Part shown: piece after piece, positions 1 through 3,021 of the stretch | How positions within the stretch are numbered: position 1 is the first letter of the stretch | Layout: the number at the start of each line of letters is the position of its first letter | From: an uncultured Flavobacteriales bacterium | GTDB lineage: Bacteria > Bacteroidota > Bacteroidia > Flavobacteriales_D > CAJJDF01 | DNA: 41,291 bases | Direction: 5' to 3' | Assembly (NCBI GenBank): GCA_905182785.1 | Contig: CAJJDF010000005.1 | Coordinates: forward strand, 1-41,291 | Notes under the pieces: generated by a model | What the model saw: only the letters and a program-made list of their open reading frames with translations | The model's database searches: none | What the model was told of the DNA's origin: nothing | Made by a program: the position numbers and the translations under genes

Positions 1-98
1 AATAGATATTTGTAATTTTCTGTATCACTGTAGAGATATGAAGCTAATAGAATTACAACAGCCCATATTATAGCACTTATAATCAGTATATTTTTCAT
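1..98 (-). CDS. N-terminal fragment of a small membrane-anchored protein of unknown function
   Basis: An ATG at 98 on the minus strand opens a frame that runs off the left edge (32 codons visible). It reads MKNILIISAIIWAVVILLAS followed by a polar stretch with Tyr, Asp and Glu. That is a single hydrophobic segment of about 17 residues after a short basic start, so a membrane anchor or uncleaved signal is likely. It lies on the same strand as the next small membrane-anchored gene (250-621) and is separated from it by a palindromic intergenic site (152-220). No family is recognised, and the missing C-terminus prevents a better call. Confidence 0.45.
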   Translation of the reverse strand, partial: MKNILIISAIIWAVVILLASYLYSDTENYKYL

Positions 99-151
99 TT
101 TTGAATTTATTTGATTGGGATTACTTATAGTTTAAGTTAGTATTCAATTAC

Positions 152-220
152 CTATAACGTTTACGCTAAAAAGCGTTGCCATCCCGCAGGGTGGCTATGA
201 TTTTTTAGTGTTTGTTAGCA
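152..220. repeat. Quasi-palindromic intergenic site, attC-like
   Basis: The outer ends are CTATAAC (152-158) and GTTAGCA (214-220). Inside them ACGCTAAAAA (163-172) is complemented by TTTTTTAGTGT (201-211) with one mismatch or slip. The centre holds GCCATCCC and GGGTGGC arms. The whole can fold as a long hairpin with extruded bases. The AAC...GTT ends and fold resemble integron attC sites, but the R-box bases outside AAC/GTT do not fit the consensus well. It sits exactly between two small same-strand genes. It may instead be a dispersed palindromic repeat of unknown function. Confidence 0.45.
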
Positions 221-249
221 TTAGTTTTTTAATTTGAGTATATTTTCCT

Positions 250-621
250 TTACCAATTATTCTCTTGAATTATTTCTGAATTCGTGATCGTTTCTGTGGT
301 TCTAAGCCCGTATTCAAAATACATCCCTTTTGATTGCAGAATAGAATCATTTTCAAGTTCAACTGTAAGAGTATAGCTATTTTCTCCAGTATTATGGAAA
401 CCCATATATGCTGTTTTGTTGACATCAACATTTGATATGAATAACTCACCATATCCATGTTTTAATGTCACTTTCTTTACTTTAAAATCCGATTCATTTT
501 TAATAGTAATAAAAGCAGTTTTATAATCAATTAATTCCCGAGAATAATTAATTGAGGTAATGAACCATGCTCCAGCACATAAAATAAATCCAAGTAATAA
601 TCCTATAATTATCTTCTTCAT
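250..621 (-). CDS. Small membrane-anchored protein of unknown function
   Basis: 123 residues starting MKKIIIGLLLGFILCAGAWF, with one N-terminal transmembrane segment (about residues 3-23). A polar domain follows, rich in short beta-prone stretches, with few charged clusters and no recognisable catalytic motif. The Cys at 16 is not followed by a convincing lipobox context, so anchoring by an uncleaved helix is likelier than lipidation. It is flanked on both sides by quasi-palindromic sites (152-220 and 635-679) whose inner ends are exact inverted copies of each other. This suggests the gene is a discrete transferable unit. No function can be assigned. Confidence 0.6.
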   Translation of the reverse strand: MKKIIIGLLLGFILCAGAWFITSINYSRELIDYKTAFITIKNESDFKVKKVTLKHGYGELFISNVDVNKTAYMGFHNTGENSYTLTVELENDSILQSKGMYFEYGLRTTETITNSEIIQENNW

Positions 622-634
622 ATTTCAAATTAAT

Positions 635-679
635 GCTAACAGCCGAATATAGTTAACTGTTAACTATATATCCGTTATA
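635..679. repeat. Second attC-like palindromic site with perfect 11-bp hairpin
   Basis: It starts GCTAAC (635-640) and ends CCGTTATA (672-679). The core is a perfect inverted repeat ATATAGTTAAC (647-657) / GTTAACTATAT (659-669) with a one-base loop. TAATGCTAAC at 631-640 is the exact reverse complement of GTTAGCATTA at 214-223, so the gene between them is framed by inverted ends. No T-run follows on the minus strand, so it is not a clear engB terminator. Confidence 0.45.
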
Positions 680-743: not shown

Positions 744-1367
744 CTACCAAACCTTATTTGGATCAGGCTTCACAAATGTTTTGTTCGTCTCTTCTACAAA
801 AGCAAGAATTTCTTCTTTTCCAGTTTTCTTTTCGGCAGAGGTTAAAAAATACTGAGGAAGAAAGCTCCATTTTTCACTCATTTTTTCTAAGTAGGTATTT
901 ACGTTTCCTTCAATATCTCTTGGGTCCAATTTATCCATTTTGGTAAAAACCATTACAAAAGGAATTGCGTTTTCTCCTAGCCACTCCATAAATTCGTCAT
1001 CTGCCTTTTGCACATTGTGGCGGGAATCTAATAAAACAAACACACACATTAAATTCTCCCTTGATCTCAAGTAGTTTCTTGTAAAATTCTGCCATTTCAT
1101 TCTCAAATGATTGGGTGTCTTTGTAAACCCGTATCCAGGTAAATCCACCAAATACCACTCGTCATTTATCATGAAATGATTCATTAGCTGAGTTTTTCCA
1201 GGGGTAGAGGAGGTTTTAGCTAGTTTCTTGTTGTTACAAATAGAATTGATCAAAGAGGATTTTCCCACATTTGATCTCCCAATGAAAGCATATTCAGGAA
1301 TTTCTGGTTTTGGACACAGGTCAACTCTCGTATTACTTATTACAAATTCTGCAGTTTTTACTTTCAT
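744..1367 (-). CDS. engB: Ribosome biogenesis GTP-binding protein EngB/YsxC
   Basis: TRAFAC-class GTPase of the YihA/YsxC family, needed for assembly of the large ribosomal subunit in the cytoplasm. Motifs in order: G1 GRSNVGKSS (about residues 30-38), a G2 threonine in SSTPGKTQ, G3 DLPGYG, G4 TKMD and G5 SAEKKTG. About 207 residues, the usual length. The frame extends to a GTG at 1373, but the ATG at 1367 gives MKVKTAEFVISN, the usual start for Bacteroidota homologues. Divergent from mraZ; a TATCTTTG -7 element lies just upstream on its strand (1394-1387). The last ~60 bases of the gene are AT-rich and end in Trp. Confidence 0.95.
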   Translation of the reverse strand: MKVKTAEFVISNTRVDLCPKPEIPEYAFIGRSNVGKSSLINSICNNKKLAKTSSTPGKTQLMNHFMINDEWYLVDLPGYGFTKTPNHLRMKWQNFTRNYLRSRENLMCVFVLLDSRHNVQKADDEFMEWLGENAIPFVMVFTKMDKLDPRDIEGNVNTYLEKMSEKWSFLPQYFLTSAEKKTGKEEILAFVEETNKTFVKPDPNKVW

Positions 1368-1386
1368 TTTCACTTTAATTATTCAA

Positions 1387-2123: not shown

Positions 2124-3021
2124 TAAATATCATATCCCCGTTCTTTTAAAAAGTTCGGTTGAAGGATTGAACATTGTACCTAGTGGAATCTTCGTAGATG
2201 TAACTTTTGGTGGTGGAGGTCATTCAAGAAAAATTCTTGAATCACTTGATGAAAACGGAAAATTATTCGCTTTTGATCAAGATGCCGAAGCTCACGAAAA
2301 TTCAATTGACGATTCACGTTTTACTTTGATAGACCAAAATTTTGCGTTTATCAAAAATTATCTTGCCTTCCATGGAATTGAAAAAGTGGACGGAATCTTG
2401 GCAGATTTAGGAGTTTCTTCTCATCAGTTTGATTCTGGCGAAAGAGGTTTTTCTATCCGTTACGAAGGGGATTTAGATATGCGAATGGATCAAAGTCAAG
2501 AGTTATCTGCAAAGAGAGTTGTAAACGATTACGAAGAAGATAGACTTGAATTTATTTTTAAAACCTATGGCGAAATAAGAAATGCCAGATTGGTAGCAAG
2601 AAAAATAATTGAAGCCAGAGAATCTAATTCAATCGAAACGACAACCCAATTGATTGACATTGTTAAGCTACTTACGATACGAAAAAAAGAAAACCAATTT
2701 CTTGCTCAAGTATTTCAAGCAATTCGCATTGAAGTAAATCAAGAGCTAGAAGTGTTGAAACAATTTTTAGTTGGAGCACAAGAAGTACTAAAGCCAGGTG
2801 GAAGGTTGGTCGTTATTTCTTACCACTCTTTGGAAGATAGGTTGGTGAAAAATTTCATTAAGAAAGGAAAATTTGAAGGAGAGATAGAAAAGGATTTTTA
2901 CGGAAATCCATTGGTAGACATGAAGGATATATCGAGAAAGGCAATTGTGGCTGATGCAGAAGAATTAAAATTGAACTCAAGAGCACGAAGTGCAAAAATG
3001 AGAATAGCAGAGAAACTTTAA
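2110..3021 (+). CDS. rsmH: 16S rRNA (cytosine(1402)-N(4))-methyltransferase RsmH
   Basis: SAM-dependent methyltransferase of the MraW family that N4-methylates C1402 in the decoding centre of 16S rRNA. It shows HIPVLLKSSVEGL near the start, the SAM-binding VDVTFGGGGHSRKILE (about residues 29-44), LADLGVSSHQFD, and the C-terminal ISYHSLEDRLVKNF. Length 303 residues, standard. A GTG at 2095 would add five residues; the ATG at 2110 gives the usual MKND-YHIPVLL start and a 14-base overlap with mraZ, suggesting translational coupling. Its stop is followed one base later by the ftsL start. Confidence 0.94.
   Translation: MKNDSKYHIPVLLKSSVEGLNIVPSGIFVDVTFGGGGHSRKILESLDENGKLFAFDQDAEAHENSIDDSRFTLIDQNFAFIKNYLAFHGIEKVDGILADLGVSSHQFDSGERGFSIRYEGDLDMRMDQSQELSAKRVVNDYEEDRLEFIFKTYGEIRNARLVARKIIEARESNSIETTTQLIDIVKLLTIRKKENQFLAQVFQAIRIEVNQELEVLKQFLVGAQEVLKPGGRLVVISYHSLEDRLVKNFIKKGKFEGEIEKDFYGNPLVDMKDISRKAIVADAEELKLNSRARSAKMRIAEKL

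Follow-up and report, generated by a model that had tools for sequence, protein, structure and literature searches.

In integrons, short and mutually unrelated genes stand in one orientation with hairpin sites between them. The R' box behind a hairpin is part of the cassette that comes next, so that the ends that match are those of one cassette and not necessarily the two arms of a single site. The enzyme is recognised by an insertion: excerpts of PMC9024848 (IntegronFinder 2.0) take an extra domain as the mark of IntI among integrases, and parts of PMC7790495 present the extra helix of IntI as the innovation that allowed recombination of single-stranded cassettes. Passages of PMC8138268 describe an "integron-like" subgroup of simple tyrosine recombinases in which this insertion is not fully conserved, while calling it essential for integron function. 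A list of phyla with integrons in PMC8618304 includes Bacteroidota, and passages of PMC9024848 mention In0 and assign one complete integron, in Salinibacter, to the Bacteroidetes proper. Across titles and abstract openings (preprints and most subscription journals lay outside this scope, and a prior description is possible) we found no published account of cassette arrays beside insertion-less enzymes.

The locus described here lies at one end of a 41,291-nucleotide stretch of DNA (C5:1-41291), which as a whole is called the window; its base 1 is base 1 of the contig, and the feature is cut on that side. We hold, with a probability of about 0.84, that the window contains the engB-side end of a small integron-type array, consisting of an attI-like site, an orphan cassette, an attC-like hairpin, and the start of a second cassette (Table 1).

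Table 1. Features of the locus and of two further places in the same genome (G000)
Feature	Position	Strand	Remarks
Candidate attI-like site	638-669, within site 2 (631-679)	-	Palindrome ATATAGTTAACAGTTAACTATAT (669-647), TCGGCT, then GTT
R' of the cassette	640-631	-	GTTAGCATTA
Cassette as a unit	159-640	-	From its own R' through the gene to the hairpin end, before the R' of the next cassette
Cassette gene	250-621	-	123 aa, orphan
attC-like site 1	149-223	-	Follows the 123-aa gene in gene sense
R'' of the cassette	223-214	-	TAATGCTAAC; opens site 1, then a 3-nt spacer
Stem of site 1	210-202 / 172-164	-	CACTAAAAA / TTTTTAGCG; then a 5-nt spacer
R' of the next cassette	158-149	-	GTTATAGGTA; closes site 1
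Start of the next cassette	1-158	-	R' GTTATAGGTA; the ORF opens with the ATG at 98 and is truncated where the contig stops
GTPase gene	744-1373	-	Chromosomal neighbour outside the cassette; Pfam MMR_HSR1, 1.1e-21
Second lone cassette	G000:C16:41500-46500 (L244), gene 2479-2838	-	119 aa; framed by GTTGTGTGTA/TACACACAAC, exact over 10 nt
attC-like site	G000:C34:2470-2527 (L245)		Located where a 370-aa ORF ends (by eye, fatty-acid-hydroxylase-like)

The preliminary description had seen a gene for a 123-residue membrane protein between two foldable stretches, with another small gene behind it. The gene is present, a hydrophobic N-terminus is visible in its product, and both flanks fold better as single-stranded DNA than dinucleotide shuffles do: for site 1, z was -2.5 on the plus strand (6 of 200 shuffles were as good) and -1.8 on the minus strand (11 of 200), and for site 2 it was -2.8 and -2.9 (2 and 1 of 200). 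The second small gene is likewise found on the same strand and leaves the contig. The inner ends are exact inverses over 10 nt, as had been noticed, and are also part of a 15-nt pair with 93% complementarity; five further exact 10-nt pairs occur in the window at spacings of 150 to 3000 nt. The idea of a gene framed by inverted sites was given up in favor of the R'/R'' pair of one cassette, with both sites in direct orientation, because the asymmetry of the stem spacers in gene sense is 3/5 nt in site 1 and 4/6 nt in site 2. The outer TATAACG and CGTTATA both exist, but as ends of an element they probably match by accident, one belonging to the R' of the next cassette and the other to a bit of the attI-like region. 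The pattern TATAACG-N25-55-GTTAGC occurs twice in the 2.32-Mb genome, both times at this feature (the reversed control pattern, 0). The 123-aa protein reached no family above cut-off in Pfam (best match DUF4894, E 0.022), NCBIfam, or PHROGs and had no homologue beyond itself in 40 relatives or in 395 genomes of the phylum, its own genome being included in both sets. An Rfam search of positions 1 to 1400 gave four matches, all far under the gathering scores. The GTPase gene beyond the cassette, which we take to be of the engB/yihA type, was matched in all 10 genomes searched, its own included.

The first lead to comparable arrays was a pattern search of 150 genomes of the order, of which 62 matched, with control counts as high; by eye, structural relatives of site 1 were present among the matches (e.g., in G035 and G102), and two adjacent genes of G035 are framed in the same way. 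In G037, an array begins directly behind a same-strand tyrosine recombinase. The motif pair TGCTAAC..GTTAGCA occurred in 19 of 199 genomes across the order, mostly noise-like, with one real site by eye (G101). An alignment of the recombinase led to at least 80 named loci, and 24 of them, filed as full-length-recombinase loci, entered a count of cassette-end frames from which the long-protein loci L159, L160, L165, L174, L177, and L179 were left out. Among the matches listed for these 24 named loci, an exact 10-nt inverse frame enclosed 31 of the 121 same-strand genes downstream of the recombinase, or 42 when one mismatch was allowed, compared with 15 and 277, respectively, of 14,520 non-cognate pairs. 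By chance, a gene would thus be enclosed by an exact 10-nt GTT...AAC frame in about 0.1% of cases. Genes upstream of the recombinase, on both strands, were framed exactly in 0 of 191 cases and with at most one mismatch in 2 of 191. Opposite-strand pairs were not used as a control, the frame rule being symmetric. Frame length peaked at exactly 10 nt (30/121), and the 31 exact frames were spread over 14 of the 24 loci and comprised 29 different 10-mers. The two boxes of a single site, R'' and the R' that closes it, matched at just 3 to 8 of 10 positions in the 28 sites measured. The arrays thus counted follow immediately behind a Bacteroidota tyrosine recombinase and run in the same direction as it does, and to this extent the earlier suggestion of an attC-bounded cassette is borne out.

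The rule is far from universal in these loci: 90 of the 121 downstream genes have no exact frame (79 even when one mismatch is allowed), and 10 of the 24 loci have no frame at all, three of these having no downstream gene in the fetched sequence. In five loci filed as "short-form," exact frames enclosed none of the 14 downstream genes and 3 of the 43 upstream ones; three of the five (L149, L162, and L169) turned out to be full length. As a positive control, four of seven loci with canonical-type IntI (L206, L218, L220, and L222) carried frames of 7 to 13 nt on the divergent side, a comparison made without statistics; no framing was seen at L205, L211, and L217, which have 1, 4, and 0 genes on that side, respectively.

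The sites between the framed genes share an architecture. Stems begin 3 nt after R'' and stop 5 nt before R', and site 1 of the window fits this in gene sense, with 55 nt between R'' and R'. The gaps from R'' to the next R' are alike within an array, being 53 to 54 nt in Rufibacter (one first gap is 118 nt), 118 nt in Arundinibacter, 120 to 121 nt in Algibacter (with one of 184 nt), and 177 to 180 nt in Carboxylicivirga. As a side observation, gap lengths fall mainly into classes about 62 to 65 nt apart (54, 118, and 180 nt), together with a class of 38 to 40 nt. For stem pairing, 36 sites were chosen from the 50 distinct hits of the models; weaker hits, partial hits, and those with long gaps were set aside. 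At least eight of nine stem pairs formed in the 3/5-nt register in 18 of the 36 sites and in 50 of 1,260 mismatched partners, a count that is favored because the stem is part of the models behind the hits; none of 10,000 permutations reached the observed sum.

Two site models were used for searches. Because model R1 contains site 1, which makes its hit in the window circular, model R2 was built without the window. Of the four hits that R2 gave in 11 sources, the best was site 1 (E 2.2e-5 in 89 kb); the other three were at loci to which R1 had led, two of them in the genome of the window. Site 1 is thereby recovered independently, in agreement with the preliminary description as far as this one of its two foldable sites is concerned. 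On 29 recombinase or array sources, R2 gave 13 hits at an E of ≤0.1, all downstream and co-oriented; 11 of the 13 lie in G007 and G053, which were fetched because R1 hit them, and 2 of 26 named loci were hit. On 27 other recombinase loci it gave one hit, in a Bacteroidetes MAG, again downstream and co-oriented. R1 had hits at an E of ≤1 in 25 of 60 relatives. Sites downstream of and co-oriented with a nearby recombinase on the same contig were found in G007 and G053 (four each), G027 and G049 (three each), G019 (two), and G037 and G038 (one each); in G005, a single site lies near the recombinase on its other side, and in G007, 9 of the 13 R1 hits are far from the recombinase. The Rufibacter array (L161) has 15 full-length sites, all on the plus strand, of which 6 were used in model building.

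Within the genome of the window, R1 pointed to three places, namely, the window, contig C16, and contig C34. The sites are thus neither single nor confined to an invariant locus, which would have spoken against a cassette. On C16, a site with a 38-nt gap follows the framed gene; at the C34 site, no R' mate was detected. The preliminary description had also proposed a search for a tyrosine recombinase, and none of either type was found in this genome at an E of ≤1e-30; because no recombinase copy was detected there, we call its cassettes orphans.

A comparison with relatives proved informative, since congeners differ at both the window and the C16 loci. The neighbors of the C16 cassette, a methyltransferase-like gene and a convergent gene, stand 4 nt apart in the congener G001, where there is no cassette. 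In a by-eye comparison of the flanks for presence or absence, G001 also lacks some 330 nt on the left side of the cassette, so that more than a single clean cassette insertion separates the two genomes here. The fetched stretches of G002 and G003 have a different gene after the methyltransferase gene and are uninformative for this locus. At the window locus, the neighbors of engB in G002 and G003 are a lipoprotein-like gene, which is convergent, and a gene for a transporter (MATE by eye); the distance is 50 nt in G002. Yet another gene lies behind engB in G001. The G000 counterparts of the pair are on contig C24 (transporter, 75 to 76% identical; lipoprotein, 39%), where co-oriented genes and a long attC-like site at the contig end face the lipoprotein/transporter pair; this site is weak in R1 (E 0.049) and absent from the R2 hits. 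If C5:1 joins C24:1, as we infer across the contig gap, the array would lie between engB and the lipoprotein gene. The window locus looks empty in G002 and G003, in a comparison that spans this gap. Elsewhere in G002 there is a separate cassette (an R2 site, with an R' mate at one mismatch).

The left-hand site is probably better read as attI-like than as a second attC. Its 24 nt at 661-638, the last three of which are the GTT of R', are found again ahead of the C16 cassette with a single mismatch, and no third place with fewer than six mismatches was found in the fetched loci (1.87 Mb, part of the genomes). In G099, a similar palindrome and TTCGGATGTTAGCATTA follow shortly after the recombinase, together with the same R' 10-mer (GTTAGCATTA) as in the window. 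Palindrome scores of at least 8 were reached in 8 of 13 recombinase loci (95th percentile of controls, 8; n = 390), at variable positions, and the C16 copy of the stretch is without a strong palindrome. Three sequences thus suggest an attI-like character for site 2. We had also considered that site 2 was the attC of a preceding cassette; this was dropped, as the chromosomal engB is only about 65 nt away and the sequence resembles the post-recombinase stretch of G099.

The recombinase linked to the arrays in Bacteroidota lacks the insertion of about 42 residues found in canonical IntI. The distance from KGxKxR to HxLRH was 57 to 63 residues in 30 of 33 Bacteroidota proteins (3 unmeasured), whereas it was 99 to 100 residues in 6 of 8 IntI-type proteins (2 unmeasured). 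An alignment to VchIntIA (2A3V, named IntI4 there) left 56 IntI and 11 query residues unaligned between two matched stretches. One such recombinase, P0002, passes NCBIfam NF040815 (XerA; 221.8 bits, cut-off 220), its best match there, and fails TIGR02249 (193.5 bits, cut-off 265); the top PDB sequence hit is 5HXY. In a midpoint-rooted tree of 52 proteins with moderate deep support, the Bacteroidota group (34 rows, support 85/82), in which the recombinase of the order-mate G037 falls with the named Bacteroidota, stands apart from the IntI clade (100/98). From this position of the G037 protein, the genome of the window is presumed to belong to Bacteroidota as well. The predicted structure of the Algoriphagus recombinase (pLDDT 84.4, pTM 0.57) has IntI4 and XerA as its best matches, and its first ~80 residues are predicted to form a separate domain (pLDDT 84.8).

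This extra N-terminal domain is present in many array-linked recombinases, and some related ones are without it. Its nearest matches all score weakly. The top-ranking match was SMARCAL1 HARP (4O66) in a profile search (E 0.097) and again in Foldseek (E 0.079). In a second structural look, XPB chains led (Z 6.4, rmsd 3.5 Å, 63 aligned), level with eIF1-type folds (Z 6.1); HARP had a Z of 4.2 (rmsd 1.9 Å, 49 aligned). In Pfam, DUF5710 was matched in 7 and HARP in 4 of 23 members (best E 0.0012). Sequence and structure prediction thus offer a weak lead toward a HARP/XPB-like N-terminus. HARP and XPB domains recognize DNA structures, and a similar domain might play such a part in the recombinase. 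The annealing activity of SMARCAL1 is treated in portions of PMC9371921. Much longer N-termini were seen in the recombinases of L166, L161, L182, and L189 (proteins of 457 to 683 aa), which perhaps consist of repeated HARP-like units.

In the mechanism that we propose for the integron-type array, a tyrosine recombinase would cut between the G and the TT of the R boxes, with a folded strand as its proposed substrate. On excision, R'', hairpin, and R' would be joined in a circle, with a site in which the 10-bp R boxes pair perfectly. The cassette would be inserted between the G of the left flank and the TT of the cassette that comes after it; each hairpin would hence be followed by the R' of the next cassette, with every gene standing between the R' and R'' of its own cassette. 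The likely enzyme has a Bacteroidota Xer/XerA-like catalytic domain without the IntI insertion, mostly with the N-terminal HARP/XPB-DRD-like domain. The orphan cassettes of the window may have been left by an integrase since lost or brought in by one acting in another cell.

The arrays resemble integrons and CALINs in their short, unrelated, co-oriented genes with hairpins between, in the complementary R' and R'' of each cassette, in site lengths that are similar within an array, and in the adjoining tyrosine recombinase. They differ in that this enzyme lacks the insertion, mostly bears an extra N-terminal domain, and is co-oriented with the array, and in frames that peak at 10 nt and gaps mainly of ~38 to 40, 53 to 58, 117 to 121, and 177 to 184 nt. 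The system appears to work like an integron, having a one-orientation array with attC-type sites and complementary R' and R'' in the same cassette, yet it is without the insertion-bearing IntI by which a complete integron is recognized. Compared with the "integron-like" subgroup in the passages of PMC8138268, the enzymes adjoined by arrays here are ones without the insertion. They are close to XerA and archaeal Xer in their NF040815 and 5HXY matches and unlike them in the N-terminal domain and the linkage to cassette arrays. We put forward tentatively, at somewhat less than even odds, that these arrays represent a second, separately evolved class of integron in Bacteroidota, with a Xer-like recombinase lacking the IntI insertion, 10-bp R boxes, recognition of folded sites gained through the N-terminal HARP/XPB-DRD-like domain, and phylum-wide arrays missed by integrase-based integron searches. 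Arrays beside an insertion-less recombinase would mean a second solution, or a wider integron ancestry, and would open a pool of Bacteroidota cassettes little counted so far.

The window could instead hold what is left of a canonical integron (CALIN), with an ordinary IntI as the mover of its cassettes. The cassette-end rule is common to canonical integrons, which have been reported in the phylum (excerpts of PMC8618304 and PMC9024848), and toward a CALIN the window contributes one full attC-like site and the beginning of another cassette, and C24, across the gap, one further site. We nevertheless regard this origin as improbable: a TIGR02249 match over cut-off was found in 0 of 100 relatives, the genome of the window included, and the framed arrays adjoin a recombinase that is not IntI. 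R2 hit none of five canonical-type IntI loci (L206, L211, L218, L220, and L222), a weak argument given that only Bacteroidota sites went into the training of R2.

Far less probable is an insertion unit of the transposon or MITE type, with inverted ends around a passenger gene and a transposase acting in trans. The inner and outer inverse repeats would fit such a unit, which needs no transposase nearby, and the C16 difference from G001 does exceed the cassette; but the terminal inverted repeats that insertion sequences and MITEs share are lacking, as shown by the diversity of 10-mers among the 31 frames, the hairpins recur in one orientation in arrays, and the outer repeat is explained by the neighboring cassette. 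We give least credence of all to two unrelated hairpins (terminators or regulatory elements) around an ordinary gene with a chance 10-nt match. Intergenic hairpins are common, and the window has its five other exact pairs; this account would nonetheless need a frame of ~0.1% chance, a hit of the independent model R2 on site 1, and a second framed gene in the same genome at a locus that differs in G001.

Apart from the integron-type array of the window, two arrangements were observed in other genomes. At L170 (Flammeovirgaceae UBA6059), three genes with exact 10-nt frames lie on the upstream side of a recombinase (275 aa) that has no extra N-terminal domain, and the arrangement may be a divergent one. 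In the single-contig genome G007 (C1:3915000-3954999; L247 and L248), the array behind the recombinase includes a DNA methylase-like gene (by eye), and the other strand carries a gene resembling a group-II-intron-type reverse transcriptase (423 aa, by eye).
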